NCBI GenBank assembly: GCA_946699065.1
Contig: CAMPDV010002334.1
Location: 1-64,000, forward strand
Reading direction: 5' to 3'
Length of the DNA stretch: 64,000 nucleotides
Source: Loxodes magnus
Taxonomy: Eukaryota; Ciliophora; Karyorelictea; Loxodida; Loxodidae
A program made the position numbers and the translations under genes. The notes under the pieces are model-generated. The model made no database searches and was not told the origin of the DNA. It was given only the letters and a program-made list of their open reading frames with translations. Shown piece by piece: positions 18,094-52,506 of this stretch (the first letter of the stretch is position 1; the number at the start of each line of letters is the position of its first letter).

Positions 18094-18153
18094 TTTTTTA
18101 GTAGCATTTTTGATTTAAATATATTTATAGAAGCGAAATGTTATAGTATAAGT

Positions 18154-18226: not shown

Positions 18227-18246
18227 TTTTTAATAAAAGTATCTTA

Positions 18247-18276
18247 TTAAGAATGATTAAGATATATCATTCTTAA
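18247..18276. terminator. 11-bp hairpin after tRNA-Arg
   Basis: Perfect inverted repeat TTAAGAATGAT / ATCATTCTTAA with an 8-base loop, starting 20 bp after tRNA-Arg; copy 2 has it at 52660-52689. Polymerase III does not need a hairpin to stop, so a terminator role is only a guess. Confidence 0.3.
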
Positions 18277-18931: not shown

Positions 18932-19003
18932 GTCGGTGCAGAGACTTGAACTCCGGTTTCGACGGCCACAACGTCGTGCCCTAACCACCTAGACTACACC
19001 GAC
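18932..19003 (-). tRNA. tRNA-His (GUG)
   Basis: On the minus strand the 7-bp acceptor GTCGGTG/CACCGAC, anticodon stem CGACG/CGTCG with loop TTGTGGC (anticodon GTG), and T arm CGGAG-TTCAAGT-CTCTG fold into a standard cloverleaf of 72 nt. A TTTT run follows its 3' end. The same 72-nt gene occurs four times in the window, twice per unit, always on the minus strand. Confidence 0.97.
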
Positions 19004-22551: not shown

Positions 22552-22619
22552 TTTATTATAATTTTAAAGCATTTTTTCTAATTTATACAGTTTGTATTGT
22601 AAAAATATTAAACTAGAAA
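22552..22619 (-). promoter_or_regulatory. Conserved upstream block of family A, member 3
   Basis: Minus-strand TTTCTAGTTTAA, CTGTATAAATT and TTTAAAATTATAATAAA in the same order and spacing as before the other family A members. Confidence 0.5.
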
Positions 22620-23402
22620 CTTAATTAAATTAAATAACAATCATAATTTAAAAGAAAAAGTACTGTAAATCTTAGAGTATTGTAAGTTAATATTAGACAC
22701 TTAAAAATAAATAGATATTAGCTTATACTCAAATAGCTTAAATTAATTAAATTATTATTTATCCTTTCTTTATGGTTGAACTTGTGATACTCGGCACACT
22801 TTAAAATATGCTATAAACTGCGTTTAATATAAACAGACTAAACTTAAACTGTTTTAAAATATATTAGAGAAATAAGTTTTTAAAAAGATTATATTAATTA
22901 ATTATATAATTTAGATATCTACATTTATATATTTTTAGCTAGGTTTCTCATAATTTTTATTGTTAGCATTAATTTAAATAGAAGAGACAGGTTAGTTTAA
23001 AATGTCCATAGAGGATTATAATTACTTAATTAATAATTAATTATGAATCTACTATAGACTATCATTTATCATAAAGTCAGATAAAAGATTTTACTATTTG
23101 TTCATTTTAAATAAATCTTTCATTATAAATACTCAGTCTAAAGTATTTGTATAGCTTTAGAAAGTATAAAATGTCTTATCATAATTATCTTATTAGATGA
23201 AAATGCTTTTAATATATATTAAAAACTATATATAAAATTTCAATAATTTTATGAGATATTCACTCTTTTTCTTCAATCAATATAAAAAACTAAATAATTA
23301 CAATATTAAAATAAAATATAATTGAGTAATGATATAATAGAAATGCATATATTAAATAAATAAAATATATAACTTTTTAGATAATTAATTATTATAATTA
23401 TA
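22620..23402. other. AT-rich spacer between family A and family B genes
   Basis: No confident gene. A minus-strand frame of about 70 codons beginning MKDLFKMNKQQNLLSD (seen best in copy 2, 57300-57518) is protein-like, but several differences between copies change residues and no homologue is known to me. Confidence 0.35.
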
Positions 23403-24915
23403 TTATAACTTTAATAACTATCCTATGCTCATAATAACTTAATTAAAAGTTACAAATTAAAGTTTATTCGTAATCAATTTCATAGATATTTATTTTATCT
23501 TTCTAGTTATAGCAAGTTAATATATTAGAAATTAAATAGCTATCAAATATAAAATTGCTTGCTACTTTTTTACATTAGCAAGAATTTAAATTTTAAAATA
23601 TTAGTAAAAATTAAAGATATAGCATAATAATATTTTAAAATAACTTAACTAAAATCTAGCATCTTTTTAAGAATTAGAAAAACTTAAATAGATAAGCTTA
23701 TTTTAAATTATTTTTTTGCTAATTAAATAGAATAAATATATTACTAAAGAATTATGCTTATCTGTTTTTCTATATGATTTATCTTTTATTTTTCTATTTA
23801 AAAAATTTGGATCATACTTATTTTTTACCCTTCAGTTTGAATTTATTTTTGATTGATAATTCTATATCAATCTTTTATAGCATTTAACAAATTTTACTTT
23901 ATGGTTAAAGTCTAATTTTTCTTTGTTATTTTATCTTATGAATTGGCAAGTTCTTTTTAATTGAATTAAGCTACATTGTTTTCTAATTTCTTCTTCCATA
24001 TTTTAACGTCGCTTACTATTGATAGCCTTTATATTTTAATAATTTATACAAATTTTAATTTCTTCATCTATGAAAGTAATATCTGAATCATTACTGTTTA
24101 AACTTATAAGGAAATTTTTTAGATTTTCAAACTTCTTTGCTTTATTAATATAGAAAATTTGCTTTTTCTTGAAATATCATGATCTTATTTTATATTTATT
24201 ATAATAGACCCAGCAAAGAATAATTGAGTATCTAATTTATCTTGCTTAAATTATAGTTGAATAAAGTGATTTAAAGCATTTCATAAAAATTTTGTTTATT
24301 ATAAATTAATTTTAATTTTATTGATTTAATTAGTAAAATCTAGAATTATAATAAAGATAAAGCTTTTATTTATAAATTTTATATTGTACCATTTTAAAAC
24401 AAAATTAAATTATTTTCTTATATAATATTATAATAAAATTTCTTTTTCTTCTTTATCAATCTTAAATAAATGTACTTTTCTTCACAGAATTACTAAATTT
24501 TTCCTTTAAAAATGATTATTTTATAATTTTAAGATTAAATCTCAGGTGATTTATTTAAAATAAGCTATGGTAAAATGAAAAAGTAAGGATTAATATTAAG
24601 TTTCTATTTTCTAGATTCATCGAAATAATGAATTTGAGTTTTATGCCTCTTCCCTTTTGATTTGTTATAAATACTTTTACATTTACTTAGAATAAAAGTA
24701 TCTTTATTTAGTTAATTTTTAGTTTTGTATAAGTTTATATTTAATTATTAAGGGATATAGCAATATAAACTTTCTAAGTTCTTAATGTTAATATTAGATT
24801 GAGTTAAAGAAAATGAATGTTCTAGATTATAATTTAAATAGTGATAAATATTAAGATTATAATTAAAATAATAATCCTAACTTTATTAGTTTAATGCTTC
24901 TAAGTTATCATTCAT
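23403..24915 (-). pseudogene. Family B gene on minus strand, copy 1 (two 1-bp deletions)
   Basis: Counterpart of 57798-59312. It is 2 bp shorter because of one lost base near 24115 (in a T run) and one near 24305, which split the frame that is continuous in copy 2. The differences between copies include silent changes such as CAA against TAA for Gln, but more replacements than silent ones by my count. The region may therefore be drifting. Assembly error in homopolymers could also explain the two deletions. Confidence 0.4.
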
Positions 24916-27900
24916 ATATAATTTATTTGATTTAAATAAGTATCTAAATGCATTAAAATAAACAAATTACTATTTGCTTGCTTTTATTAATTTATTATCT
25001 ATATTTATTAGACTTAAGTTTTTACAATAAAATCTAAATTTATAAATTAAAAAATAATATACATATAACTAAATTTTATAATGAATTTTAAATATAAATA
25101 AGTATGAAATTATAATTAAATATAACAAAACTAAATAGAAATTATTAACAAACTAATATTTAATTTAATACAATACAGAGATTAATTATTTTAAATATAT
25201 ATTTAATTTCAGATATTAGTAGAAATATCAAATAGAAAGATAGCTTATTGCTCTACAATTTAAAATAAAATAACTAATTATTTAATTAATTCTTGTCATT
25301 TAAAATAATCAAAAATATAAAATTAATAGATTCATATTTTAAAATTAGACTGAATTAAATACTATTTTAAATAAATTGTTTAAAAGAATATTTAAATTTA
25401 GTAATAATATGGAAATAATAACTAAACTTAAAAAATAGTTTTAATTTATATTAAAATCTAGAACTAACTAAAATTAGATTAAGGGATCACAAGAATCATA
25501 CAAAAAGTTTTAAATAATTTGTTATTAATTTAAATAATTTGTTTATTTAATATTATTTAAATAATTTGTCTATTATATCCAAAAATAACTAAGAATATTC
25601 ACTTTTAATGTTTTATTTATTTCTAATTTTAATATTTATTTTGAACAGAAGTTCTTTATTTAACTATATTTTTACACATTTTTTTAAAGGATTAAGTGAA
25701 AAAAGTATTTAATATTTTTTAAGAGCTAGATTTAGTTATATTTAATAAATTTAGATTCTTGCTTAGAAAAGGGAATGAAAGAACTAGAAAGAATTTAAAC
25801 AGAATTGTTTAATTGGTAGAGTTTATTGATAAGGCAAATAAGATAAAGTTATTAATAGACTAATAAATTAGTTAGTTATAATAATCAATTAAGTTTATGA
25901 ATTTATCTCTTATTATTGAAATTTCTTATATTATTAATAAAGGATATTCTAATCAATAGTACTTTAAATTAAATATCTTTATAGTTATTCAGTCAATATT
26001 AATAAGCAACCATGAAATATTTTTAAGTTTTAATTTATTTAAAATAATTTAATTGAAAATACTCCTATTTTGATTGAGATTCTCTTAGCATTTATTTAAA
26101 TTTTAACTTAATTAAAAGGACTTTTATCTTAGATCATAATATACAATAAATAACTTTACATTCATAATTTCTATTAATTGAAGTTATTTAATCTTAATTG
26201 ATAATCTTGAAATTAAAGTTAACCTTTTAAGAAAAATATTTAGTTACCTTATAAAAATAATAAAAGCTTTCTAAAGAAAAGATTCTAATAATTATATAGT
26301 AATTAAATTTAATTTTTAAGTTAATTTAAGATAATAAATATTTAAATTGTTCTACAGTTTTATATGGATTTAAGAAAATATCAAGCTATATCAATTAAAA
26401 TAATAATAAGATTTAAAATATATCAATCCTTTATTACCTTATAATCAATTATGTCCAATAACATTATAAGCTAGATGTAATAACCTATTCTCTCTTAATT
26501 CAAATATTTCTAAGATACTTTTAAGTCTGCATACTTTCTTTTATTGCATATTAAGGAATTATTGAAAACTAAGTATAATATGATTTTCAAACATTTTAAA
26601 ACACACTACTAGCCTGGAATTTATACGATTTAAATAATTAAATAATAAGAGACTTATCATATTTTTGTTCTACTTATATTAGAAAATACTAATGTTTAAT
26701 TTATTTACTTTATAATTTAACTTACTTTTATATTTTATTGCTTAAATCTTTACATAAATCAATTAAATCATATATTAATTGTTATTCACGAACCTTGCTA
26801 CTGTAAGAAAAACTATAGCCAACTAGATACCAAACTATTAATTGTTTCAAAATACTGCAAAGAATCAATACTTTTCTAAATCAAGATTAATGTAGCTCAG
26901 AATTAAAATTTTGCCACTGACAACTTTTGAATAAAATAGTTACTCAAAATTGAACTATAAACCTTTTAGATTCTTTTTATAAAATAGATAATAGAAAATT
27001 TTATTAAGCTATTTTTAAACAATCTAATGAACCTTTAATTAGCAAATAAATCAAATTATGTTAAAGGTAATTTTCACTATTTAAGGTTTTTAGAATGAGA
27101 ATAAATTAGAAATTTAGCTGAAATATATTAGATTAAAATATAAATTTAATTTTAGTACGTAAGAATGAGATAAAAGACAAAGATCTGACTTTAAGTATAT
27201 TATTTTGATTTAGAATTTCATAAAAGCCTTATGATTATATATCAATATTACTCATAGATTGATTAATAAATAATGAAGTCTTAAGATAAATCTAAAGGTA
27301 TGAAAATTCTTAAAGTTTGAAATATATAGATAATTAATTAATTTTAAGATATTACAAAAAGGATAGCTATTGCTTAGTCATATCTAAATAATTTGATAAC
27401 TCTAAATAAAAATATAAAGTAATAATATTTATATCTTTTATCTAATTATACTTTTTATAATTTTATATAAACCTATATTAATTTTATCTTAGATTCTTTT
27501 AAGCTCAGCCTATCTTAATTTCCATTAAATAAACTATTAATAGAAAATGTTTATTTCCAAACTTATAAGGTATATAACAAGTTGGTTTATTCATTTAATA
27601 TAATAATAAATTAAATTATAATTCAGACATAATCTAATATTAATAGCTTATCTTAGATCTAGAGATTTTATTGTTTAATAGCTAAAGTATTAGATTTGCA
27701 TATATCTGGGAATAAAACTTAAAATTAACTTTTTAAATTCAAGTATGAGAAATTAAAAATTACATATAGTCATTAAAATTTCCTTTAAGTCATTTAACAT
27801 AAAATACAAGGAACTTAATAACTTATAATTAATACAGGCTTTAGTTACTTTTATAAGCTAGTATTAGATTTATATATTTGTTTGTTCTTAATTCATTTAG

Positions 27901-28792
27901 TTTGCTCTTTAAAGATAATTGTTTAACTAAATAAATTAATTACATGCTTATTTATATAATAAATCAAGTTAATGAGTAAATCCAGGTATTAACTGTAAAT
28001 TATTTATTAACTAAGGAAAAATATAAACTTAAGCAAAACATTTAAGGAAGTGAAAGTTACAAGTTTTGATTATTTTTAAAAGAGAAAATTAAGAAACAAA
28101 CATAAATTATTTGAAATTATGAATTTCTTAAGAGATTATTAAGCAAATTAAATTTAAATCTATCGAAAAGGTAATTAATACATAATTATTCTAGCTAACA
28201 TTTTCAATTTTTACTTTTTATTACTTTGCTTAATATCTATTTGAATCTAAAGTAAATACAATTGCTTTATAAAAATAATTAGTTATAATATGTTTGTCAT
28301 ACTCTTTAAGGTTTTTTTTAATTTAATGTTATAAATAATTAGTTTCTATTTTAATTAAATAAAAATTCACTATAGATAAAATTAATATATTCTTTGCTTT
28401 TTTATTTTAGTAAACTTCAGTGATAACTATTTTAATATATATTCCTTTCTGGCTTCTAGAAGTATTGAAATGAGTAAACTTAAGAAAATTTTAAAGAGCA
28501 TTTTAACTTAAAGTTTTAGATAAATATATCCTTAATTAATAAAATTTAAGATTATATTTGCTTTATTTATATTCGAAGATTATTTAAAGTAAATTAGTTT
28601 AAATCAACCTTAAACTTTATTCTAACTATTTCAATTTTTCCTTAACTAAATCATTGGTTTGATATCCAAAAAGTATATAAATAAACTTTGACTTTACTGT
28701 TTTAACTAATTATATAAATACTTATTTTATTATCATTTTTTCTTATCTTTTTGTTTCTTTACTCTATTTTTTTACTTTTTCAAAATAAAAAT
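24916..28792. other. Long AT-rich tract
   Basis: About 3.9 kb, nearly identical to 59313-63189. It includes three copies of TTAAATAATTTGT at about 25510-25569. I recognise no gene or RNA. Because the copies do not differ, selection cannot be judged. Confidence 0.5.
25510..25569. repeat. Three copies of TTAAATAATTTGT
   Basis: Short direct repeats within 60 bp, also at about 59907-59966 in copy 2. Confidence 0.7.
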
Positions 28793-28864
28793 GTCGGTGC
28801 AGAGACTTGAACTCCGGTTTCGACGGCCACAACGTCGTGCCCTAACCACCTAGACTACACCGAC
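28793..28864 (-). tRNA. tRNA-His (GUG), second copy in the unit
   Basis: Identical 72-nt sequence to the gene at 18932, with anticodon GTG and the same acceptor and T arms. The flanks are unrelated. A TTTTT run follows its 3' end on the minus strand. Confidence 0.97.
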
Positions 28865-29974
28865 TTATAATATTAGATTACAATTGATTAAAAATAAGCT
28901 CCTTTTCACACTTTAAGGTACTAATTCTTTAAAGATCTAACCAAAATTAAAATGAAACCCTTTTAATTTGTTCTATTGTTTTTATACACTTAATTTATTG
29001 CTAACTAGCTTATTAGACTAACTAGTTAGATTTAAAACTTTCTTTTAACCTTAGAAAATAAAGATTAAGGGATATAGATGATAGCTTTAAATATAATTTG
29101 AATATTTGATACAATATAACTTAATTTATAAGCTTAAATATCTTTTTACCTTCATTCTATCAATTTTATTTTTAAATACATCCAACTCAATTTTCTTGCT
29201 TTCAATTGCCTTTCACTATTTTTCTTTTTCTTTGCTTTTATCAAGCAATTCTAATTAAATATAATACTTGCGTTCTTTCTTTATTTTTTATAGAAAGATG
29301 AAATAAAAATAGTTTTAAGCTTAGTTAATTATAATTATAACCATAGGAGAGTAAAATAATTGAATAAAATAAACCTAATTTATACATATAAGGAAATATA
29401 TCGATTATTCTAGCACTTGTAACTATTTAACCAAAAGAGACTAGGATAAAGAATTATTTTAGTAGAAAACTATTATTCATTGCAAAGCTTATACTCAAAA
29501 ATTAAAAAATAGGGAGATCTACTAAATTATTAAATATTAACAAGTATTTTTAAGGAAACTGATATGCTTATATTTAAAATTAAGACTTATTTAACACCAA
29601 AATTGTATAGTTATGCATATTCAAAATAATTTTTATATAGATTGAGAAAATACCAAGGTGAAAAGGTAAGCTTTATTGTTTACATAGAAAGATAAAATAA
29701 AAGAATAAAAAGAAAGAAGAAAGTAATTATAAAAATACTAATGTAAGTTTAGTGAAATTTAGATTATAATATTTATTTTTATTATATAGGCTGCTTTTAC
29801 AATTTTATATAAATTTCTTTATATTTTTACAAAAAAGAAAGATATCTTACATAGCATCTTATCAAAATTTAAATCCATTACTTGTAGCAAGGTGCTTGTA
29901 TTTTAGAAAATTAAAGGCTTTAGGTATCGTAGGACGTAAAATACTTAATTCGACTGTAACTATTTTATCTATAA
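28865..29974. other. Spacer before LINE 2
   Basis: AT-rich, no recognisable gene. The match to copy 2 is visible to 29603, where the window end cuts the comparison. Confidence 0.5.
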
Positions 29975-32900
29975 ATTTTAATAATTATCTATCTTTCAAA
30001 TTAGAATAAACATTTCATTATTGCTGGAGACTTTAATGCGCACCTATATAATTATGATAATTAAACAGATACAGATCTCTAATTATTTAATTTTACATAA
30101 GCTAATGAACTCATAGATAAAAATTAAAAATAAATTCCCACACATTAAATAAAATAAAACAAAAGACAATAAATCATTGACTATATCTTCTTAGACTAGG
30201 ACTTAGAGTAATCAACAAAATACATATTCACAGTAGATAAAGAAACAGGAGTTAATACTGACCATTATCTCTTAGTACTGAATATAATGCTAAAATAAAT
30301 GATGGTTAATTTAAATGCAGAAAATTAGTAAATAAGAATGATATATAATCTAAATAAACTGTAAGAATAAGAAAAACTATATTTATATAAAAACTAATTC
30401 CTTGGTGCTTATGATTTTTTTGAAAATAATATATAAAATTTGAATTTATCGTTATAATACAGATTTATTAAAAATTTAATCCATATTGCAGCTCTTGAGA
30501 TACTTGATCAAAGACAGTAAAATCAGCCAAAACTGCCTTCATCTGTAGTGATATAAATGAATAAAGCCAGAAATGCAAGAATATAATATATAAATAAATT
30601 AAACTAATTTAACCGTATGAATGATGAAGTCATCTAAATGAAATTAGAGGCAAAAAGGTAAAAGAAAAAATTCGTAAAAATGAAGAATGCCATGTGAAAA
30701 AATATAAATGGATAAAAATAAATAAATTTGAACGGTAATAACCAGGAAATGGCTAAGCAAGCAAATAAAATTTTCAATCCTAAAAAAGCTCTAAATATGA
30801 ATCTCAATTCAAATTAGACAGAATAATTTATTAAAAATTGAGAAAGTGTATTAAACTAATATAAAGATACTAATCAATAAGAAATACTTAAAGAAGTAAT
30901 AAAAATAGATGAAATCTACAAACAAAATAAAATTCTTTAATAAAAAATAGCATAATCATGGAGTAAAATAATATACTAAGAAGTTGCTGATATAATAAGA
31001 TACCTCCCAAATAATAAAGCTGCAGGTTTTGATTAAATACCAAATGAATTAATTAAATATGCAGGACATGAACTTTGAAAAATTTTAACAAAATTCTATC
31101 AAAACTGCTAACGCGATTAATTAATCCCTGCCGAACTAAATAAAATTAAAACAATAATGATCCATAAAAAAGATTCCAAATATGATTGAAAAAATTATAG
31201 ACCAATAGCAATTATAAATACAATCTAAAAAATATTCGACAAGATAATATCAAACCATATATATAAAGATGTAATTGAGTAAAACCAAATTAATAAAGAC
31301 TAAAAAGGATTCATAAAGAAAATGCAAACTACAATAAACATATGACAAATATAATAGATAATGAATCATTATTAAGAAAGTAAGAAAAAAAAGGAAGAAA
31401 ATGAATCGTTGATTTTTACCTTGATTGATATTGAGAAAATGTTTGATTCTATAAATCACTATTTACTTTTTAAATAACTAGAAAGATTTAAAATAGCCGA
31501 TAACTTAATAAAAACATTGAAAAACATATATTCTCAAGTACAAATACACTTTTAACTAGAAGACTAAATCACTAGAAAAATAGACTACAAAAATGGTATA
31601 CTTTAAGGAAGCTCATCAGGACCTATACTAGCCATAATTTATTATGATATTGCTATGTAATACTTAGAATAATATAATAAATTAGGATACAAGATAGGAA
31701 ATACATAATACTCAAAATTAGCATGAGCTGACGATTTATTATTAGTCTCCAAGAACGCTTAAAGAATGTAATAATTAATAGATCAAACTTAAAGAATATT
31801 CAATATAATAAAATTAAAAATAAACTTAATAAAAACCGAATGCATTAATATTAGTAAAGAGAAATAAGAGAACTAAAAAAAATTAGATTTGAAAATATAA
31901 GGGAAGCTAATTTAATAAAAGAAAACGTTGAATATTTAGGATTCACAATTGATTAGAATAATTAATTAATTACACATATACAAAAAGTATAAAATAAATA
32001 TTAGTAGGCCAAGTACTTATTTTAATAGAAATTTTACAGCAGATTTAATAAGACGATCCCAATTAATTTCAAAAATTTATTCAGATTATTTATTCTACCT
32101 AAATTAGAATATGGTGCTGAAATAATTCCATATAGTATACAAACTGGAATAACAAAGGTGAAAAATTAAATACATGTAAGTTAACGATAAATTATAAGAT
32201 AATATATGAAAATGCCATAAGCATCCTGAAATGAGTTACAACACATAGATTTTAACTGACTTGGATTTGAATAAATAACTGCAAAAAGATATTTTAAATT
32301 TTATAGAAAACTAAATGACTTATATAATCAATAGTAATAATCTAAGAATAAAGATGAAAAGTTTATCCAATTATTCTAAATAAGTTAAAAAAATAAGACT
32401 TAATAACAGAAATAAATTAAAAAAATGTAAAAGAAATTTAAAATAGATTTAAAAGCTTTATAAAATCTAAATATGATGTAATTCGATAAAAAAATTGATG
32501 TAAAAATTAAAGAACAATTTTTTAATTAAACAATTTAGAGAATAACAAAAACAACAAAAAAAAGAAAAAAAGAAATGATCACAGCAAAAATTATAACAAA
32601 GTAATTCAAAAATGTAGAAAAATTCCCAATTATAACCTACTTTTTATTGAACAAAGAGAAAATGCAACCATCAAAATTAATATTCAGACTGAGAACCTAA
32701 CTACTTTTTTTTAGAAGTGATCTTCAAGAAAGACATATTCCTTAAGAATATGATTAATGCTTATGTCAAGAAAAAGAGACATTCTAACACATATTCAAAT
32801 GTAAATACTACCAAACAAGTATAGATAATATTAAAACCTAAATAGATAAATTTATTAAAAGCAAAAATAAAGCGTAAAATAATATAAACTAAGCAAATAT

Positions 32901-33180
32901 TTACGAAAATATAGAACAAGAGCTCTTAGAATATAATTAAAACATAATAAATTAAATATTTTGCAAAAAAGACTATATGAATCAAATTGATAGAATAATA
33001 AAATCTACATGAAGCAGAATAAAATAAATATGAAAACAAATATATTCTTTCTAAAACTTAATGAAAATAAGACAAGTAAATCTAATCTTAATGAGACAAG
33101 AAGAAATACTACAACATTTTCAAGAGTACTTAAAAGTAGAAGTGTATTGAGTTTAGACTTAAAACTTCAAAGCTAATAAG
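29975..33180 (+). mobile_element. LINE-type non-LTR retrotransposon 2 (5' truncated)
   Basis: Runs from the middle of an endonuclease domain through reverse transcriptase to a C-terminal zinc motif. The endonuclease N-terminus and ORF1 are missing at the left edge, as expected of incomplete reverse transcription. The right edge is approximate. Its sequence differs from LINE 1, so at least two LINE families are present. Confidence 0.85.
30002..33162 (+). pseudogene. Endonuclease / reverse transcriptase of LINE 2
   Basis: Endonuclease motifs are IIAGDFNAH (GGA at 30026), IIDYIF and NTDHYLL (about 30254-30270). Reverse transcriptase motifs are KAAGFDQIPNELI, YDWKNYRPIAI (TGA at 31187-31189), IDIEKMFDSI (motif A), GILQGSSSGP (TAA at 31604-31606 as the invariant Gln) and LAWADDLLLVS (TGA at 31724-31726, ADD at 31727-31735). 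All lie in one frame from 30002. After KTEC (31832 on) the frame moves: VEYLGF (31927 on) and the zinc motif C-L-C...H...C (from 32758) are in another frame, so one frameshift sits at about 31845-31900. The last plausible end triplets are 33148-33162. The enzyme nicks target DNA and copies element RNA into it (known for the family). Its catalytic residues look intact. Confidence 0.85.
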
Positions 33181-33258
33181 CAAACTATATTATTTTTAAT
33201 TTAATTTAATTTAATATCTATCTTTCAAATAAACCATATAGATCATTTATTAAATAAA

Positions 33259-33565
33259 ATGGCACCTAAGAAATAATAGACCTCTATTAACGAATACTTG
33301 AAAAAATAAGAATAACCTAATTTAATTGAAGAATAGCCTTAATAAGATAAAGATTAATAATCTAAGGAACCCTTTGCATAATCAGTTCAGCAAAGGATAT
33401 CAAATATCCAATATGACTTGAAAAAGCAAAGATAAAAAATAGAAAATTTAGAAAACTTACTAGAAAAATTAATGGAATAATTAAACCTGTAATTCCCATC
33501 CATAGATGAATCATTAAATAAAATCTAATCTTAAATAGTAATTAAATTGGAATAAATTGATTAAA
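33259..33565 (+). pseudogene. ORF1 5' part of LINE 4, interrupted
   Basis: The ATG at 33259 opens MAPKKQQTSINEYLKKQEQP, followed by a Gln-rich stretch and a heptad-like region (RQKIENLENLLEKLMEQLN). This layout suits a coiled-coil ORF1 protein of a non-LTR element. QTSINEYL resembles a PCNA-interacting motif (Q-x2-I-x2-aromatic), though the last position is Leu. The frame is cut at about 33555 by LINE 3 in the opposite orientation; compatible coiled-coil sequence resumes at 34261. It starts about 80 bp after LINE 2 and could belong to a tandem element of the same family. Confidence 0.5.
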
Positions 33566-34260
33566 AAAAAAAAACTTTGATTAAAGTGCGCGTAGCACCA
33601 CAATGGTGCGCAGCACTATAAAAAGTCAATTGAATACAAATTCTTCCTCCAAGATCCCTTGTGGTAATAAATATTCCTCTATTATTTCGTCAATCTCTTG
33701 TTATTCTTCTTCTTCCTTCTACTACAGTATTTCACTATTTATTATTCTTCTTTTTACTATTCCCTCACTATAAGCCTTTTGAATTTTATCTTATATTTCC
33801 ATTTCATTATTATTTCTATATCTTTTTCTTTTTATTAAGTTTTTATATATTCAAATGAATTATCCTTTTCCAGCCCTATAATCTTTTCCAATTTCTTTCG
33901 ATCAATTATTCCTTCTTGATATCCTTTTTTCCTCTGCTTTAAAATTGTACTTATATAGTCTTTTACTATTTAATCTACTTATATTCTATGTTTTATTTCT
34001 TATTTTCTTTTAAATTTTTAGAATTTAGCCGTACCTCATACTACATCGAATAATTAAAGTCCTATTCAATTTAATTACATTTCTTCTAAATTTCTTATGC
34101 ATTTTTCTCTTCCATCACTGTATTCTTCACATTCTTCTATTATATGTCTTTCATCTTCTTTTGATTTATTGCACATCGGGCATTCGCTTTTTTCCACCAA
34201 ATGTCTTTCTTTCAATAAATAATTTAACGAAGTCCCTCAAATGTTCCAATTTCATTTTTC
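33555..34260 (-). mobile_element. LINE 3, 3' fragment nested in LINE 4 ORF1
   Basis: On the minus strand the first part encodes a reverse-transcriptase C-terminus with the zinc motif C-P-M-C...H...C (34183 down to about 34128), typical of LINE proteins, followed by a charged tail. The 3' end holds a GC-rich stem-loop (33585-33620) and then TTTAATCAAAG and a T run. It is flanked by near-identical 12-13 bp sequences TTAAATTGGAATA (33542-33554) and TTAAATTGAATA (34261-34272), a likely target-site duplication. Only the last 0.7 kb is present, so it is 5' truncated. Confidence 0.7.
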
Positions 34261-34745
34261 TTAAATTGAATACAAAATAAAGGAACTTTAAGAAAAACAA
34301 GAATAATAACAAGTAATAATTTAAAAATTATAAGATTAATAAGATTAATAATCAAATATCCCAATGGAAATTGAATCGGAATTCTAATAATAAGAAATAA
34401 ATAAGATCAATTATTATCGCAAAAAGATTCGGTGCTATTTATGCTAGAAAAATCATTGCTGGAAAAAATGCTGGAAGAAACAAGAAATTGAAAAAATTAG
34501 CAAGTAATAAATATTAGACTAACTTTTCAGAATATGACCAACAAGAACAGGATAAGTATACAGAAAGAAATTCTACAACTCAAGAAACAACGAGTTTTAT
34601 AAAAATGGAAGAAGAAACTATAACGATAATTAGTGGATGAGGGAGAGACAAGGATGGCGGACTAATGTAGTCCTACGCAGTACTTTAGTTCAGGAAAGAG
34701 TAGAAACAAAAACAAGTGAACCCTGGAGCTCTTTTCTAAAACTAT
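34261..34745 (+). pseudogene. ORF1 3' part of LINE 4
   Basis: Coiled-coil-like frame KIKELQEKQEQQQVII continues the ORF1 interrupted by LINE 3. The best frame then changes to RSIIIAKRFGAIYARK and a charged stretch, so it is degenerate. Past about 34745 no retroelement motif follows; the endonuclease and reverse transcriptase of this element are not here. Confidence 0.4.
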
Positions 34746-36226
34746 AAACTTAATTTTATCCTTTTAACCAGTTTAAAAAGTTATAGACTCACAATTTAAA
34801 CTATAGATGCTTACTAAGACTTTATCATATATTCAACCTTTCTTAACTATATTTCATATATTTCAGTATAAAGCAGACAGATTCGATCAAAAATAGATTT
34901 AATAACTTTAGATTTTGGTTAAAGCATCCAATTTATTTTTAGTCTATATATAGCAAATAAAAATAAAGCTATTTAATAATTTAAAATACCTCTATTTATA
35001 TTATGTGCTCTAATTTTATTTATAATAAGTATATATTTTGATATATCAGCTTTGAATCTTTTCATATGAACTATATACCAAAATTATAAAGTTTGCAAAT
35101 CATACAGAGATTCTTTATGCATTGCAAGGAAATTTAAATTATAGTTAATTAAATTAAATTTTAAGTTATTTTAGCTATTTTAAAAGAATCCAAATTCCTT
35201 TTATTCATATTAATTAAACATTTCTAGAAACCTAGGACTAATATAAGATATATCAAAATTATTAGATAAATTAGCATCATGCAGATTATAAGTTTTAACT
35301 CCTCTCTAGCTAGCTAAATAGCTATTAATAAGCTTATTTAATATATTAAAATTAGATTTTTATTGAAATTTTGTATTGAGGATATATTAAAAGCATATGA
35401 ATATTGGAACTAATAAACATATTTTAGTATGCAAAAGAAATTCCTTTAGAGTAAATATGATTGTTTTATCTAAAATGAAAGCTAATTGTTTTTAATTTAG
35501 TACCTAATCAATCTAAAACTTCACTCTATTATTAGCATTTAGCCAACATTCTAATTGTCTTACTTTTGCTTTATTTGCATTTAGTCAAATAAATAAAAGA
35601 TTACTCTTAAAGCAATTTTTTGGTCTTAATCAAAAAGTTGGAAACTAAAGTTGTTTTACTAAAATATTTAAATTACAAGCATCTTAGTTGAATATTTTGA
35701 CTATAATGAGTAAAAGAAAGAGAACAATTAAGATTATTTAATAAAAATTGGAAATAGGCTAATGATAAATAGTGGAATGAAGATTCAAATAGGATTGTGA
35801 TTTAATCTTATATTTAGTAATAATTACAACAAGTATACTTATAAAGTTCATACTTTTTAATATAATGTACTAAATTAAAAATTATTGTATATTTTTAATA
35901 CTCAAATATACTTAGTGGCTACTCTTAATAATTATAGTTGAAAGCTTGTATATTTAAAGGCAAATAATCAAGAAATATAAATACAAAGAAACTATTTCTC
36001 TTATATCAAACAATAGCTTGAAAAGAAAATAATTAACTATTGTAGAATTATCCTACTAGTAACAAAGGAATAAAATCATATTTAGCAAATAGATTCTAAA
36101 AATATATTTAGATGATTAAATATCTAGGAATTAATTAACGAAGCAGCTAAATTTATGGATTAATTAATTGCTTTAAATAATTCAAAACTAAATCTGAATA
36201 AAAGAAATAAAATATTTGTTTAAAAA
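34746..36226. other. Upstream region of the membrane-protein gene
   Basis: About 1.5 kb of AT-rich sequence between the LINE nest and the ATG at 36227. I see no other gene. The promoter should lie here but I cannot place it. Confidence 0.5.
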
Positions 36227-39200
36227 ATGCTTATTTGAATATTCTCAATCTTAGGTGTTACTCAAATAAGTTCATTGCAATTTTTAATTGTTAGTTCTCC
36301 TCATACAGTTCCGAACTTATCAGACTTCATTTAAAAGTAGGTGTCTCAAAGTTTGTTTGGAAACTATTCTTTCAATCCTATCCATCTATATCTGGAAAGT
36401 CCTAATTTTTTAACTTAGACTATTGAAAGATAAATATAAGACCATAAAATAGAATTCATTCTGGACTTAACATTCAACATCCTTTACACCTATAAACTAA
36501 GCCTTTTAAAGACTAATATCCCTTAGTTTGTAGCATACAGAGATATAAAATATTTTAGTAGCTAGAAAGTGTATTGAATTATGCCTAGTTATAAGTAAGA
36601 AGGAAAGGCATTGCAAGAACTATTTGCGAGCTTAAATTTAACTAGGATATCTTATATAAGCTAAGAAGAGGATAGATTTTATAAACCACCTGAATTTATT
36701 GATCAAAGCAAAATACGAATAGTCAACTCTGTAATAATTCCTTTGAATTCAAATTATGGTCTGAATTAATCAATATGTAATAATGATTATATGAAAGAAA
36801 GAATACTGAAAGAAGTTTTTTAAGTATATAGAATATATGGCTCTTCAGTAATCTTAATGCAGTTGGAAGTTTGCTGATAAGCATGAATTTATGCAGTTGC
36901 TGATTTATACAAAGCGCTAGAGGCTAGGTAAGTATGAGTAACAGGCTTGGAAGCTTCTTATATCATAAGTCCAAAAATATCTTAAATTATATAATAAAGC
37001 TCTAAGACTCGTGTTAGTATTTTAGATGATGGAATTATAGCTTTAACTCCAAAACTTTATATCCCTAGTAATTACTTTGATCTAACAATGTATTATGTTT
37101 CACGTTGCCTAGCCTTTATCGTAAAAATTGGTAACTTAAAAGCAGAGGAAAATTATTAATCTTTTAAAGAAACATTTACCAAGTTTAAAGGTGAAACTTT
37201 CGATAGTAACAATTTTATGATAACAGAATTTTCAGTTTTCAATCTGCAAAATAGGAGACTAGTAGAAGTTCTAGAAATAAAAGATGACTAAGTGATTAAG
37301 GTATAAGAGATATTATACCCTGGACCAAGCACAACACCACCTCCTAATTAATTTCCCATAGAAATGTCTTACTCAACTAACGATTAAGAACCAGACGGCT
37401 CAAAATCTCATTTCATTTTAACATCTCCTCCAAAGCATACTCCTTGCATTATTGATTATATCAACTTAGAATTAAGATAACTAAGTTAATTTTACTTTAA
37501 AGCAAACCCAATTTCATACGGTGGAATGAAATTTGATTTCAATTATACTCTGCAAGTTTTAGTGGAAAACTATCACGAAATAGGAATAGCTCATTAAAGT
37601 AGCTTATTATATTTAAGTTGGATATCCACTTACTTCGTTTTTAAATATATGGAGGTAAATATTCCTTATATTATAACGAGTAGAGAAGATGAACTATCAA
37701 ATATTCATTAATATGAGAATGTTATATACAACTATATTTCATGAGAATTTTTTCAAGACATGTATATTTAATTTTTAATCAGAAACAAATGAGATAAAAT
37801 TGGTATGATTTTTGAGAAATACGAACCTTCTAATAAAAAAATTCATGACAAGATAAAGTAATGACTGATAAAAAATGATAAGATAATTCTGAACTCCAAT
37901 GAAACTACACTCTTAGAATTTAATCAAACTGAAAATTAGTAGCTTTATGATGATATAGCTCGTCAGATAATTTAGAAGGAAATTAGAATATTATTTTCCT
38001 TACCTGCTTTAAATTTAATTTATAAAATTAAATAAAAAATTATGAAAATTGATTGATAAAAAGGAGATACAAATTTAGTTATTATGTACACTGCTAATTC
38101 CTTTGAATATGAAAGTGATGATGGTGAGTAGATAAATTCAAAAAAGTTATTACATGGAGCGATGACTATATCTCCTTAAGAATATATAGGAGAGATTGGA
38201 TAAGCTCTGTTAGAAGTTCAAAAAGAATGTATAGATTTTTTACCTCCTTCACCTTGTTATTATATTGAGTAACCGTTAATAATTGCTAGAGGACTTAAAC
38301 TTTGCATAGAATAAGTTTAAGATTTTCTAAATCCAAAAAATTTGATATAAAATATGAGAAATCCATAATTAACGGGATGTAGTGGATCAATAAAATTCTA
38401 AAAGAACTCCAATTTTAGAGATAATCTAAACTTTTTCTTCATCAATAATGTTTATGATTGACAGTGAAATTTGCATTTGGTTCCTTACCTTGAATATTGT
38501 TAAACATGTGCAATTGTATGAAATAAGCTAAACAAACCGACTTGAAATGACAACACCACAGATACTCCTTAAGATTCTTTCGAATTATACGACAGTAATT
38601 GTGACTTCTCAGTTCGAAGGGTGAAAAAATTCGATTTAGGTTATAATATAAGTATTTTAGAGTTAGTATTTATATCTTTAGTTACTCTTTCTGCAACTAT
38701 TTGGGGCTTTAAAGTTTGAAGATCTCATAAACAAGAAGTACTGAAGAATAAAGTATTGATGAGTAGCGAAGACGAAATATTTATAATATATTTGCTGATT
38801 CAATTTATATAATACGTTATGTTAGGACCAGATTTAAGTAATTTATTTTTTCAAGCTACTTTTTCGCAAATTTTATCGCTTGACTTTTTAGTTATAAAGA
38901 TGAGCAATTATTTCTTTTGAACTAGTGTTCTCTTTAGTTCAATCTTGGCCTTTTCTATCATTTTTCTATATTTAGCTTTTTTATTCTAATTCGAGGTAAA
39001 ATATAAAAGCAATTGTATACTAAGAAATTTGGGAAAGTTCTCTTATCTTTTTAGTCCTATTTTGACAGAAATAACTTTTATGCCAGTTATTTTTATACTA
39101 ACAGAGATATACAAATGCAGCTATGGTAGAGATAGCAATTTAAATGAAGAAATAGAAATCTCCGAAAGCTTTTTAGATATGAACTGCTCTAAATAATGCT

Positions 39201-40207
39201 TTACATAAATGCATTTTATAGCCATAGCCTTATCAACGCTAGCTTTATTTTTCTACATTCCTTTAGTAGTTTTAGTAAGACCTCACTGATAAGAATTATA
39301 AGGAGATACTATTCATATAAAATAGCAACCCTGATATATTGTACTTAAGAGCACTATTTAGATTATAATAGTAATTTTGAATTAGGCTTTAAAAGAATTT
39401 CATCCTTTCCTTCATGGTATTATTTACTCTCTAATATTTCTAGTTTTTGCTATTCTAGTGCTTATAAAGAAGGCTTTAACTTACCTAAAATTTAACTGAA
39501 TGTAATTTATTCTTCTTCTACTTACTTCCTTCATAACTGCAATAGTGGCTTTATCATTCCAAACCTCTAATTCAGGGAAAATAGTTTTATAGATTATACT
39601 TATATCAGGTATTGGATTAATCTTCATAATAGGTATAATAGTTATGGGAAAATACCCTTCATACCTCAAATAAATAAAGCCAGATTTAGTAAACTTATTT
39701 AGATTTGGATTTAGACTAAGAGTAGATGTAGGTATACTAAATAAGCATATAGATACATAAAACAAAAGAATATAAATATATAAACAAATATTCCTTTAGA
39801 ACTCTAGCAACTCAGCTTTAATGAGAACAAACTCTTCTTAGGATTAAAAGTGATTAGCCTCATTACAAGACAAGTAAATTCTCATGAGCATTAAGAACTA
39901 AGTCACTACTTTTGTTTTAGAAGAAAGCTAAGAAAACAACTTTACAATAGATTACTCTTAACAAAAAATGAAAGAAAATACTAAAAACTAAAGTATAAAT
40001 CATTGAGTTACTAAATTTAAATTAGATAGCAAATAAAGTAAGTTATTCTTATAGTAAGCAGAAGTTAGGCAGGAAAATAGCATACCTTAGGAGTATATAA
40101 TAAAGGAACTTACTTAACACTATAACTTTTCATTTAAACTATTAAATTTTAAATTTTAAATTTAAGATTTAAAGAAAAATAGACTATGTCTTGGTCTAAT
40201 TAAATGA
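36227..40207 (+). CDS. Large polytopic membrane protein
   Basis: One frame stays open and protein-like for about 1,320 codons with TAA/TAG as Gln and TGA as Trp (many in-frame TGA, also TGG at 37619-37621). It starts MLIWIFSILGVTQISS, a signal-peptide-like segment. A roughly 790-residue, presumably extracellular region follows. Then come hydrophobic spans near codons 805-825, 898-920, 945-960, 995-1017, 1036-1052, 1062-1080, 1092-1108 and 1119-1141, and a charged tail of about 170 residues, probably cytoplasmic. I do not recognise the family or a ligand. Against copy 1, silent changes are as frequent as replacements, implying some constraint. The end is uncertain: in-frame TAA at 40115 or 40157 or TGA at 40205 are all possible, and copy similarity in frame fades after about 40130. 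Confidence 0.8.
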
Positions 40208-40860
40208 CTAAGTTCTATTTAAAAACATTTAATTTACTCTGGGTAACTAAATTAAAATATTAAGCATACAACTTTCTATTTTTATTTAAATTAAAGATAA
40301 AATTAATAAAAGACTTAATGGTTTATAGTCACTTAAACTTTTTATTAACTAAGTTAACGGAAAGTAAATGAAATGAACCTTGTAATAGTTAATAAGAGTT
40401 AACTTAGTTATTAAATTTCCTTTAGCTGCTTTTTTATAATTTTAACTAAATAGTTAATTAAAATTATTAACCCTAGTATTAGTACAATTCTATTTATGAT
40501 TTATTAGCTCTATTTAGCATTAATTTGCTTCAATTAACTGAGAAATGAAAAGTTTAACTTAAGATTAAGTTATTAATTAAATTCTTTATTTTCTAATCTT
40601 AAGATAAAGTCCTTATGATTTATATTTATTAATTAAGCCAAAAAAATTATTAAAACTGCAAGTTTTGCTTTGAAATATCTAATAATATCAATCTAATTAA
40701 ATTAATAGCTTATTTTTTAAGTATTGCTTACAGTTACAAAGATAGACACTACTGGGATAGTTAGCATATGATTAAGCTAAAAAAAATCAGATTAATAGAA
40801 TAAAACTCTTGATATTTCATGTCAAGCTGAATAAATAAAGCATTGCTTATTATTTTTCGA
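40208..40860. other. AT-rich gap, copy 2
   Basis: Counterpart of 1405-2040 with small indels. No gene seen. Confidence 0.5.
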
Positions 40861-40861
40861 G

Positions 40862-43560
40862 ATGGAATTTCTCATAAATTACAAAACTAAGTCAGGACTA
40901 TTACATTAAGATGAGTATTCCTCATGCATGAGAACTATTATTTAATCTTTAAATAAATCTTTAAAATGATTAAAGAGAATTATTGCAACTTAGGTTATCA
41001 TAGAATGATAATTCTTGTAAAATATATGGTTTTCAATGCTATAATTACAACGGATGAAGATATTAACTTTTCTCATAATTCTACATTTTTAGTCTAAATG
41101 TAAAAAGCAACTTGTTTCAAAACATCTTCAGGCCAAGAAATATGAAAAAAGCTTGCTAATAATTAAGTAAATAAAAATTAGAAAATTTTATAGATTTTTA
41201 CTCTTATTTTTAGGTTTCCTGATCGAGCAGTTTTAATACTCCAATTTATTAAGGAATATCATATATCCTAGATAATTTAGATATTTGAAGACTAAACTAA
41301 GATAAATTTGAAAATAATTTAAATAACTTAATTTTATTTCCTTATATTTTCGAACTAAGAACATTGGTATTTTCCAATTAACCAAAACATTATATTAACA
41401 AGAAGATAAAATAAAACTGGAAAAGCTATAAAAGCAATCTCCATAAAATTAATAAAGCTAAATAATTAAGAAATTAACTATTGCTAAAATTAGAAAAAGC
41501 ATATATGCAATAATTGATAAAGTTGTATTTATTTTATTTTATTTTATTTAAAATAAGATAAAATAAAATTATTATAAAGAAGGAGTTTTATTATTTTTAA
41601 TAATTTAGATGAGGATAGCTGTGGCATGCACATATAATCCAAAAACTTATTGAAATTATAATCCAAATTTTCTATTTAATTTTATAATAAGATTATCCCC
41701 TTTTTTATTATTCTAGATATATTTAATTTTATCCTCTACAATAAAATTTAACTTTTTTATTTATTTTTCTATTTTCTAAGTTTGCTAATATAAAAAAATT
41801 GTATCCTAAACAACTGTAAGCATATCATATTTTCCTCTCTAATTTCAATTTGTTTGTTGATATTTAAAATGGTGTCGAAATTTTTATATTCGGCTATAGC
41901 TCTTTTAAACCAGTTGATAATGATATTATCACAATTTTTTATGATTGATTATTGACAATGTATCTTAAATTGTATTATAAGCTAAATCTAACTTAAGGAA
42001 GATAATTAATTTTAGTAATTTATATCTGGATAAGTAGCATTAATAATTGATTCTTTGTTCTTAAATTTGTTTTTATTTATAATAATTTTAATTTAATTTA
42101 AGCTACTTAAATTATGCAGATGATTCTTCTTTTAGTTTGTAAGATATATATTTAATAAATTGATTATGTGGTTTAGCACATCAATAAATTAACAAATTTA
42201 AAATTAATATTTCTAAATTCTCAATTATTTCCTTTAATTATGATGATAAATACTCATAATAGACATTCATCTTCTTATGTTAAAGTTTTCCATTTAGGCT
42301 TTGTCTCAAGGTATAAAATGTTCAAGTATTTAATTTATATTTATCACTTCTTATTAAATTTAAATTCTAAAAAATTTAATATTATTTTGCCATCGAATGC
42401 ACTATAAATTAGGAAACAAGGGATCAGGCTTGAGATTCATTTGTTTAAATATTGCGTTTTTACAAAATTTTAATATTCAAACTCTATTTTTTATTTTCAT
42501 AATAATTCTGTGAGCATTGCTTACTTCTGCTTATTAGAGTTTTTCAGAGAATTAACAAAATACCTTGGCCAAAAGTTTAATTTAATTTTATATTAAGATA
42601 GATATTCTTCTAAAACCTAACTCTTTGATTTTTTTAGTTTTTTAGTTTTTTAAGAAGATTTGATGATTTTTACTCATTAATTGATAAGTAAATTTTTAGC
42701 TGCTTTCTTTATCCACAATTTTTTCTATGCTTAAAAATAAAATTTTTGATTCAACAGTTGATTTAATTAACACAAAGCTTTGAATCCCTTTTATAGTTCT
42801 TTTAATTAAAAATAACTTTTTAATTTACCCTGTTTTTGTATACTTCTTTTAGTGAATCATCATTAAGATGAACCTAATTATTAATAGCTAGTTAAGCGTT
42901 AAATAAAGCATACATTAGAAAAAACTTTTTCTTATTTCATTCAATTTTTTCTAATCTTTAGATGCTGCTCTTAACTTGGTGATATTTTACAGAATAACTT
43001 TAAAAATTAATTTCACTTTTAATTTTTTTTCCAAACAAAAACTTAATTGCAATTTTATAGAAATGCTATTTAAGTTATTCAACCAAAATTTTTTTATAAT
43101 ACCTTAAATTAGTTAATAAATAATTGTTTTATTCTTTTATAAAATTTTAGTTTTCTTTTTAATAATTTAACTATAATCTAATAACCTTATAATTCTTTAT
43201 ACTTAGAATATTTAAAATTTTAAAAAGTTATTTAGCATTCTATCATTAAGATTAATTAATATATATCATTTTATTTGAAATTCCCTCCAAATTTAAAAAG
43301 TTATCAAATAAACATATAATTGTTTCTTATATAAGCTTTATATTTTAGTTTGCTCCATTTATTTAAACTTATTTTCATTTTTATTATTTAAAATTAGTTG
43401 CTAGTATTATTGCTTATCCATTCTTTATTTTTGCTAAATTCAAGATATTTTCCTAATAAATATCTAGAATGCCTTTTCTTAAAAATTTATTTACTCTTAC
43501 TTCTACTTAGTTAGACCAATTTTATAAATAAAGCAAATATATTAGTAATTTGTTTACTAT
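40862..43560 (+). pseudogene. Family B member (degenerate), copy 2
   Basis: Counterpart of 2044-4747. Relative to copy 1 it has lost 9 bp in frame near 40925 and single bases near 41080 and 41310, and has other 1-bp changes. One or both copies are therefore out of frame. An expanded TTTTA tract (about 41527-41570) lies within it, just before the LLSFL-like block. Confidence 0.3.
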
Positions 43561-43616
43561 ATTATTATATTATTTTTTAAAACCGCCATAGTTGTTCGAA
43601 AGTGAACAACAAGGTC

Positions 43617-45504: not shown

Positions 45505-46600
45505 CATGTGAGTTAAATATTTTGCTTTAATATTGATGGTTGTTGATTTATAATAATGGTTTTAAAAATATAAAGGAATTTAGAAGGAAAAATAATAAAG
45601 TTTATTTGATGGATAGTTAAAGATAAGGTAGCGGCTGCTAATAGAGCAAATTAATTTTAGAACTGTATAGTTGCTAAAATAATAAGATAATTAGTTATAA
45701 AATTATTGTTCTTTCAAATTATGATAGAACTATATTTCTATATAAGATCATTTTAGAAATACTAAATTAATTGATGCTAATTTAAAATCTAAAAATATCA
45801 AACAAAAAGAAACTGAATAAATCAATAGAATCCTTAGACTGAAATAAAAATATACTTGCAAGGCAAATATTTAACTTAACTAAAAAATTAAATTTAGAAT
45901 ATTAATAGATATATTGCCTAGAATAAAGTTGAAAGTCTATCATAATTTTAAAATAATTAAAAATACATTGTATACTTCAAAAGTTTGATACTTCCATAAT
46001 ATGCCATAATAGTAAGTTCTATATAGACATCAAATTGAAAAATATAAGAAATATTTAATTAAGAGAGAATAAATAACTGCATACACTAGAATTTTATATA
46101 TCTAACTTAAAAGGATTAAAAAAGAATTGAAAATAAGTGAACAAAATTATTCTAAGCTAAATAATTAAATATAAATTTGTAAATTTATTGTTATTTTTAA
46201 TTTATATATCTTGATATATTTTGATTTTATTCATAAAAAAATCTCAAAATTTTTCGAAAATTCATTAGCTTAGCCTGGCATAAAATTAAATTTAACTACT
46301 ATTAAATTAATCTATATTCACTTTATAAATTTTGTTTTCTTTTGTATGGATAAATAAAGATTAAATAAATTTAAAAAAATACATATATGAATAATAATAA
46401 ATTTAAATAAACTTGAATAAAAGGAACAATTAAAGAAAATTATTATTTTTGTATAAATGTATTGAAATAAAATATTTTAAATTAATTTAACTAAGATTAA
46501 TAGTAATTTAGAGTTAGCATAGTTAAAATAACCTTTGTTTTATAATAAACTTTATTGTTTTAATTAAGTTAGTGTTTTGATTTGAGCTATTAATATCTTT
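45505..46600. other. AT-rich spacer, copy 2
   Basis: Matches 9215-10203 and then 12114 onward; copy 1 has an extra 1.91 kb at this join (about 46483). No gene seen. Confidence 0.5.
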
Positions 46601-46609
46601 AGATTAATT

Positions 46610-47660
46610 TTTAATATTCATTTAAATAATACAAAAATTTACATTAAAAAGTATAAGAAAAAGTATTTAGGATATTTTCAATTGATAAAAAATAAAAAGT
46701 ATAATAAAGCTTTATATCCTTATTATTAGATCTCCCTTTTAAAAATTTAATTGAAAGCGTTATAAAAAATATTTTATTTCATAATACATAAATTATTTTA
46801 AAAATGCTGTTAAATCAAAAAATAACTTACTCAAATATATTTAAGAAACATAAAAACTATATTCAATTATTATATGGTATTAACAATTAATCTAATATCA
46901 GATCAATTTAGATATATCCAGAAAATAAATATTTAATATATTCTTCAGGCTTAGAAGTTTGTTTAACAAAAATAACTGCTTTTCTAAAAAGTTAAATAAT
47001 AAGGAGATAAATTCTATTTTTATAGAAGAAGAAAATAAAGCACGTGAAGCCATATGAAAACGCCAACAAAAATATTTAATAAACAACACAAAAATAATAA
47101 AGAAAATGTTTAAAAAATTTGATTTATTTTTCTTAAAGAAATCTTGCCAATATATCGATAAAACCAATAGAAAAAAGGACTTTTAGCATAAGAATAAATT
47201 GCTGGCTTTTAATCGAGCAGAGCATAGAAGCATCAATCATAAATTTAAATGGGACATGATTCTATAAAAAAATTAAGTTATAAATAATTTATTATTTCTT
47301 TAAGATAAAAAATTATTAAGCAAATAATTTAGAAATATATTAGTGAAATTATTCAGAATTATATCTTTCATCTCTAAATAAGGATTGATTATTATTATAA
47401 TTCTTAAAAATAAAATTTAAGAAAATTTTTGATTATATTTATTTATAAAATAGAATATAATTTTTTATTCTAGGAGGAGTTATTATCTTTTTTACATAGC
47501 TTAGATGAAAAATATAAAGATGTAGAGTTATTGCAAACTTATAAAATAAATAAAAATATAAATAATTTTTATCTAAAAATAGAAAAATAAGCAAAAGCTT
47601 TAAAAAGAATTTATAAACTTATATATAAATTAAGTAAACACTTATTCAATTTTTAGAGTA
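46610..47660 (+). pseudogene. Family B member at 12 kb, copy 2
   Basis: Counterpart of 12190-13260. It keeps DISRK, FIEEENK (Asp to Glu against copy 1) and LKKSCQYI. Its downstream block reads EELLSFLHSLDEKYKDVELL (from about 47474), which is clearer than in copy 1. Frame changes between these blocks remain. Confidence 0.45.
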
Positions 47661-48956: not shown

Positions 48957-49023
48957 TTTCTAGTTTAAAACTTTTGCAATAACTACTGTATAAATTCGAG
49001 AAAATTATTTAAAATTATAATAA
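48957..49023 (+). promoter_or_regulatory. Conserved upstream block of family A, member 2, copy 2
   Basis: Identical in layout to 14550-14616 and directly followed by the ATG at 49024. Confidence 0.55.
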
Positions 49024-52425: not shown

Positions 52426-52506
52426 GACACTATGGCCGAGTGGTTAAGGCGACAGACTTGAAATCTGTTGGGTTCTCCCGCGCAGGTTCAAATCCTGCTG
52501 GTGTCG
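52426..52506 (+). tRNA. tRNA-Ser (UGA), copy 2
   Basis: Same sequence as 18013-18093, with anticodon TGA, long variable arm and following T run. Confidence 0.97.

Follow-up and report, generated by a model that had tools for sequence, protein, structure and literature searches.

In the 64,000-nucleotide stretch of DNA analysed here (the window), TAA and TAG very probably encode Gln and TGA Trp as sense codons, in a karyorelict-type genetic code corresponding to NCBI table 27. The window would most likely be nuclear DNA of a ciliate using that code. Under table 11 (ATG, GTG or TTG starts), a single open reading frame of at least 100 codons was found in the window, yet reading through the triplets recovers a reverse transcriptase domain (RVT_1) with an E-value of 3.1e-25, and two copies of a second gene differ by an excess of silent substitutions; given this combination, the observation goes beyond chance. 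As far as can be judged from the DNA itself, the frames, the RVT_1 scores and the silent excess support the claim of a preliminary description that all three standard stop triplets are read as amino acids. A code of this kind is already known. Codes in which every triplet may be sense are rare and pose the question of how the ribosome recognises a stop, and the window provides an additional genomic example, with a gene in which TGA is codon 4 and two copies that show the silent excess across the triplets. A caution for annotation is that ordinary gene callers find almost no genes in such DNA.

Membrane-protein gene and codon usage

A continuous frame of 1,326 codons followed by a candidate terminal TGA was found on the forward strand at positions 36227–40207, extending from ATG 36227 to TGA 40205–40207 (1,327 codons counting the last) without a frame break. 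The earlier estimate of a frame of about 1,320 codons using TAA, TAG, TGA and TGG is borne out by counts of all four. Here, codon 4 is already TGA, and the A-ending codon is preferred in each pair counted inside the frame: TAA:TAG is 56:16, TGA:TGG is 20:2 (21 TGAs with the terminator candidate), CAA:CAG is 19:4, and GAA:GAG is 55:14. The GC content of the gene is 27.1%. Its predicted product has a hydrophobic N-terminus (residues 3–21) and approximately nine hydrophobic segments between residues 804 and 1147, consistent with a membrane protein. A resemblance to a receptor with a Venus-flytrap domain was considered and is not claimed here, given that a PDB search with residues 400–800 returned nothing up to an E-value of 10 and that the best Pfam family, TadB_TadC_N, gave E-values of 0.23–0.32, below the family cut-off. 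A search of viral_contigs for the membrane protein, made with short peptide patterns that recover close relatives only, gave no pattern matches.

Residues assigned to the triplets in a LINE reverse transcriptase

Under table 27, a protein of 643 residues (P0001) with endonuclease and reverse transcriptase domains is encoded on the forward strand at 29942–31871, in an element referred to here as LINE 2. The codons of this region include 53 TAA, 5 TAG, 6 TGA and 1 TGG. Along with RVT_1, Pfam assigns Exo_endo_phos_2 to the read-through product (E-value 5.7e-10). The best structural chain was 8c8j_A (1.2e-23), and the best chain named as a LINE-1 ORF2 protein was 8uw3_A (4.5e-23). The domains are similar to those of Loxodes magnus. 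A frame break occurs near 31,880, and the region at 31902–33173, on the same strand in another frame, is probably the C-terminal part of LINE 2, judging from its translation; Pfam found no family in it. Given that its frame is broken, LINE 2 is a weaker witness for the code. Relatives of LINE 2 were also sought: short peptide patterns, which recover close relatives only, gave no matches in viral_contigs, and none of 33 pattern matches in genome_contigs was confirmed. The LINE 1 copies (4.8–6.0 kb and 44.1–45.3 kb) contain no clear coding frame.

Individual residues of LINE 2 were compared in five alignments to near-identical LINE-1-type chains. TAA 31604–31606, proposed in the preliminary description as the Gln of the QG motif, faces the Gln of that motif in all five alignments. 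TGA 31724–31726, previously placed before the ADD box, is opposite the Phe of FADD, and thus at the aromatic position of the [FY]ADD motif. The TGA at 31187–31189 was likewise confirmed to precede NYRP (KNYRP in full), in the same forward-strand frame as the other two triplets. The other aligned TGAs, at 31076, 31187 and 31343, face Val, Lys and Arg, respectively, which are not conserved Trp positions, and those at 30695 and 30839 fall outside the aligned part.

All 20 residues were tried at TAA/TAG, and all 20 at TGA, against the RVT_1 profile. For TAA/TAG, Gln scored best (91.5 bits), followed by Glu (87.4) and Ser (82.1), with Trp lowest (64.6), and Gln is a well supported prediction from sequence for these triplets. 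The tested piece contains 19 TAA and 1 TAG, of which 16 and 1, respectively, lie within the RVT_1-matched stretch; TAG alone was barely tested, given that it accounts for 1 of the 17 aligned codons. For TGA, the scores over three codons were 96.2 bits for Tyr, 94.1 for Phe, 91.5 for Trp and 91.2 for Leu, with Asp lowest at 87.5. Thus, the three best of the 20 residues are all aromatic, which supports an aromatic residue at these three codons. Tyr and Phe rank above Trp, and the profile does not decide among the three, so that Trp is preferred on the grounds of precedent and codon bias. Inside genes, TGA is most likely Trp because the A-ending bias of TGA:TGG parallels that of CAA:CAG, TAA:TAG and GAA:GAG. 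TAA and TAG would be read by tRNA-Gln with UUA and CUA anticodons, and UGA by a tRNA-Trp; eight tRNA genes were found within the window, none of them for Gln or Trp.

Candidate end of the membrane-protein gene

The earlier view that the end of translation is not visible from sequence is one with which we agree, in that only a candidate terminal TGA, at 40205–40207 on the forward strand, can be named from the spacing of TGAs and a change in GC content, which falls to 19.1% in 40208–40600. The nearest internal TGA lies 67 codons upstream of the candidate, and the next in-frame TGA downstream is at 40616. Given that 8 of the 20 intervals from one TGA to the next within the gene span at least 67 codons, the 67-codon gap alone proves nothing about a terminal TGA. 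Termination near the mRNA 3' end at TGA has been published for Loxodes and Parduczia, and by analogy termination here would be set by nearness to the mRNA 3' end, with TGA 40205–40207 as the candidate. In L. magnus, coding TGA and TAA are reported to be depleted for ∼20 codons before the stop. By contrast, although the 66 codons ahead of the candidate stop contain no TGA, TAA is kept at 14 and 16 codons before it in this one gene.

A Condylostoma-type code (NCBI table 28) would give the three triplets the same sense meanings, with the difference that a gene might terminate at any of them close to the 3' end of its mRNA. Under such a code, TAA 40157 and TAA 40163 would also be possible gene ends. 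In Condylostoma magnum, for which this code is described (PMC4967479), all three triplets also terminate. Copies of RVT_1 and Exo_endo_phos_2 in L. magnus are put at ∼100 times those of the next ciliate counted (PMC11441545), an abundance that favours a karyorelict. Table 28 is the less likely choice, though not a remote one, and its odds overlap with those of table 27 because only termination differs. On that point, the two tables are indistinguishable in the window, and we lean towards table 27. It is improbable that the window belongs to a lineage other than those for which the code is reported, AT-richer than Loxodes, in which the code evolved independently, perhaps with another manner of ending genes (TAA near the stop).

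Silent substitutions between the two gene copies

A second, partial copy of the membrane-protein gene lies on the forward strand at 1–1404, where it is cut by the window edge. Positions 1337 and 1404 pair with 40135 and 40207, respectively. Three frame-breaking indels were observed up to 1337, in addition to a 5-base gap at 40139. The compared stretch sits downstream of 14 in-frame TGAs. Between 38801 and 40207, 18 of 42 substitutions are silent, as compared with 10.7 ± 2.7 for random placement (one-sided P = 0.0087). Between 38801 and 40135, the value is 17 of 36 (9.7 for random placement, P = 0.006); this border was chosen after the alignment was seen and leaves out six substitutions (one silent) and the 5-base gap, and the excess persists to 40207. 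For 39801–40207 alone, 9 of 24 are silent (P = 0.079, short of 0.05). Among changed codons, 16 of 33 are silent up to 40135, whereas the 3' flank has 25 silent ones among 129 (Fisher P = 0.0013). The pattern shows that selection acted on the membrane-protein frame downstream of in-frame TGAs, and it supports TGA as a sense codon.

Alignment of the copies also reproduced a silent pair noted previously, CAA at 39560–39562 on the forward strand and TAA at 762–764. Among the 36 substitutions up to 40135, this is the sole in-frame change involving a stop triplet (3.65 expected at random; P of one or fewer, 0.11), and one more, a non-silent AAA/TAA change, is found up to 40207. By itself, the silent CAA/TAA pair is a single event and weak evidence. 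No codon was observed as TGA in one copy and TGG in the other.

The Tetrahymena-type code (NCBI table 6) keeps TGA as a stop and translates TAA and TAG as Gln, an assignment found in many ciliates and like that proposed here. Under it, the TGA-bearing frames would be dead copies. Frame-breaking changes do indicate that LINE 2 and the copy at 1–1404 are partly decayed. However, the frame at 36227–40207 is unbroken through 20 internal TGAs, with the silent excess downstream of 14 of them; TGA outnumbers TGG 20 to 2; and in [FY]ADD the aromatic position is taken by TGA. The chance that TGA is a stop in these frames is therefore slim.

Comparison with other codes

Reassignment of all three stops is reported for karyorelict ciliates, Condylostoma and Plagiopyla (PMC4967479, PMC11441545, PMC11687900; for Plagiopyla, PMC11687900); this is in keeping with table 27 and with the earlier statement that such codes are known in karyorelictids and Condylostoma. 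Table 27, the code of L. magnus and Parduczia, shares with the window TAA/TAG as Gln, TGA inside genes and very AT-rich noncoding DNA. The window is very AT-rich, and a low-coding block of 17.4 kb has a GC content of 18.7%, compared with 18.6% for L. magnus 3'-UTRs; the membrane-protein gene, at 27.1%, has a lower GC content than L. magnus coding sequences, for which 33.5% is reported, and the source need not be Loxodes. In Blastocrithidia nonstop, all three stops are likewise sense and UGA is Trp, but UAR is Glu (PMC12153298), which scored 4.1 bits under Gln at TAA/TAG in RVT_1 here.

It is unlikely that the window comes from a non-ciliate sharing this code, of which Amoebophrya ex Karlodinium veneficum, a parasite of dinoflagellates, is an example. 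The likely code of this parasite is UAA/UAG Gln and UGA Trp, but the triplets occur in roughly half of the transcribed genes in its annotation (PMC12005148), as against both of the frames examined here.

Translated frames were compared window-wide for diverged paralogs (TGA columns) with duplicated blocks filtered; the 40 matches listed comprised tRNA genes and a single dispersed repeat, whose six frames gave no Pfam family below an E-value of 0.06.

RIP-like C-to-T decay in a repeat-rich fungal region would turn CAA into TAA and TGG into TGA, and is recognised by a composite index above zero, which results when TpA/ApT is high and (CpA+TpG)/(ApC+GpT) is low. That it created the stops can hardly be entertained: although the window is AT-rich and duplicated, with high TpA/ApT in 32 of 32 bins (0.91–1.28) and a positive composite index in 12 of 32 (maximum 0.42, at 1–2000), the index is −0.08 for the whole window and −0.42, −0.28, −0.22, −0.17 and +0.05 in the five bins of 30001–40000, the four in 30001–38000 all being negative, and C-to-T decay would not prefer silent sites, whereas the gene copies combine 26 transitions in 42 substitutions with a silent excess in frame.

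In-frame Stop Triplets in a Membrane Protein Gene and a LINE

The frame of the membrane gene runs on the forward strand from ATG 36227 to TGA 40205-40207 and comprises 1,327 codons, close to the ∼1,320 of the preliminary description, and it contains TAA, TAG and TGA as well as two TGG codons, as had been claimed. The counts are TAA 56, TAG 16, internal TGA 20, TGG 2, CAA 19 and CAG 4; A-ending codons make up 0.69 (AAA), 0.80 (GAA), 0.83 (CAA), 0.78 (TAA) and 0.91 (TGA) of their respective pairs. The N terminus of the protein is a hydrophobic, signal peptide-like stretch, codon 4 being TGA, and about nine more hydrophobic segments lie within residues 804-1147. No Pfam family scored above cut-off with the protein, and a PDB search with residues 400-800 found no relative.

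Translation of LINE 2 (29942-31871, forward strand) with table 27, the NCBI karyorelict nuclear code, yielded a 643-residue protein matching Pfam RVT_1 (3.1e-25) and Exo_endo_phos_2 (5.7e-10). A PDB search with this protein returned 11 distinct sequences at E 0.1 or better: 8c8j_A, named RNA-directed DNA polymerase (top match, 1.2e-23), four LINE-1 ORF2 proteins (best 4.5e-23), three R2 elements, two reverse transcriptase-like proteins and one GsI-IIC RT. The 643 codons include TAA 53, TAG 5, TGA 6, TGG 1, CAA 12 and CAG 3. The element is not intact, and its frame shifts near 31,880. The triplets singled out previously, TAA 31604, TGA 31724 and TGA 31187 in LINE 2 and the silent CAA/TAA pair at 39560 and 762, are each as stated.

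Residue Meaning of the Triplets

The reverse transcriptase piece at 31100-31871, which carries 19 TAA, 1 TAG and 3 TGA (16, 1 and 3 within the RVT_1-matched stretch), was scored against RVT_1 after translating the triplets as each of the 20 residues in turn. For TAA and TAG jointly, the bit scores were Q 91.5, E 87.4, S 82.1, N 81.3, K 80.3, R 79.3, D 78.8, A 78.7, T 78.4, H 77.9, G 76.1, V 74.3, Y 72.8, M 72.5, L 72.1, C 71.4, P 68.5, F 67.4, I 66.7 and W 64.6. Because Gln scores best, the predicted meaning of TAA and TAG is clear. For TGA (three codons), the three aromatic residues Y (96.2), F (94.1) and W (91.5) scored best, followed by L 91.2, H 90.8, C 90.3, M 90.2, P 90.1, N 89.4, V and T 89.2, A 89.0, I 88.9, R and S 88.8, Q 88.5, G 88.3, E 87.9, K 87.7 and D 87.5. 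By our own reading of the PDB alignments, most of this aromatic lead comes from the [FY]ADD slot; the preference for Trp over Tyr or Phe rests on known codes and the near absence of TGG.

The finding is real and was correctly read, and its kind is already published. Relevant passages occur in PMC11441545 (Loxodes magnus), PMC4967479 (Swart et al. 2016) and PMC11687900, where Karyorelictea, Condylostoma and Plagiopyla are named, with further material in PMC12005148 and PMC12153298.

Silent Changes between the Gene Copies

The last third of the membrane gene has a partner at 1-1404. Table 27 makes 18 of the 42 substitutions across 38801-40207 silent, where random placement of the same changes gives 10.7 ± 2.7 (one-sided P 0.0087). 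A first count over 38801-40135, a border chosen after the alignment was seen, gave 17/36 against 9.7 (P 0.006). The silent share was 9/18 (P 0.027) in 38801-39800 and 9/24 (P 0.079) in 39801-40207. Counted by codon up to 40135, silent changes account for 16 of the 33 altered codons; the 3' flank, read in that frame, has 25 silent among 129 (Fisher P 0.0013). The two remaining frames gave 10/35 and 8/34. Up to 40135 there are 3 indels in 1,335 bases, against 25 in the 3,363 bases of flank that start at 40208 (P 0.036); a 5-base gap at 40139, between these regions, was counted in neither.

Fourteen in-frame TGAs precede the tested stretch, and another six lie within it. Were TGA a terminator, no selection would be expected in this part of the frame. 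Counting against a sense reading of TGA, indels break the frame of the second copy, which is therefore decaying or carries sequence errors. No change to 40135 touches a TGA (0.93 expected; P of none 0.39), so a TGA/TGG exchange between the copies was not seen.

Candidate Gene End

TGA 40205-40207 is a candidate stop. GC content falls from 27.1% in the gene to 19.1% in 40208-40600. In frame, TGA next occurs at 40616, with 136 codons separating the two. The spacing of 67 codons before the candidate is not telling, since 8 of 20 successive TGA spacings in the gene are at least as long. TAA occurs 14 and 16 codons upstream. At 39838-40450, around and just past the 3' end, the copies differ more than in the preceding kilobase.

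Other Features of the Window

GC content is 20.7% overall, and a single table 11 ORF of at least 100 codons (ATG, GTG or TTG start) is present. In a codon-use scan, the membrane gene and the two LINEs gave the strongest signal, and the region 32.1-34.7 kb contributed weaker pieces; because the membrane gene and LINE 2 also served as its training set, the scan is no independent evidence for either. LINE 1 (4784-7756), distinct from LINE 2, is frame-broken and matches Exo_endo_phos_2 just above cut-off (2.1e-06); reverse transcriptase-like pieces spotted by eye in its other frames had no Pfam match.

At 33628-34276, a minus-strand fragment is bounded by a 13-base direct repeat (33628 and 34264; no third forward-strand site in the window). 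The fragment's match to zf-RVT is weak and below cut-off (E 0.0045). It resembles the 3' end of a LINE that was inserted with target-site duplication; the host is another coding-looking frame, from 33259, starting MAPKKQQTSINEYLKKQ.

For a dispersed repeat (14509-15528, 21628-22717 and 48854-49942; opposite orientations, ∼70-75% identity), a six-frame Pfam search of 21628-22717 returned nothing below E 0.06. RIP, the C-to-T decay of repeats, was judged by the customary index limits; the Tetrahymena-type and Condylostoma codes are NCBI tables 6 and 28.

One region is present in the window twice: identity is 95.0% between 1-4757 and 38801-43570 and 98.2% between 12168-29603 and 46569-64000. The latter pair, a 17.4-kb block of low coding signal, reflects either tandem duplication or the joining of two haplotypes by the assembly; each copy carries genes for tRNA-Ser(TGA), tRNA-Arg(CCT) and two tRNA-His(GTG).
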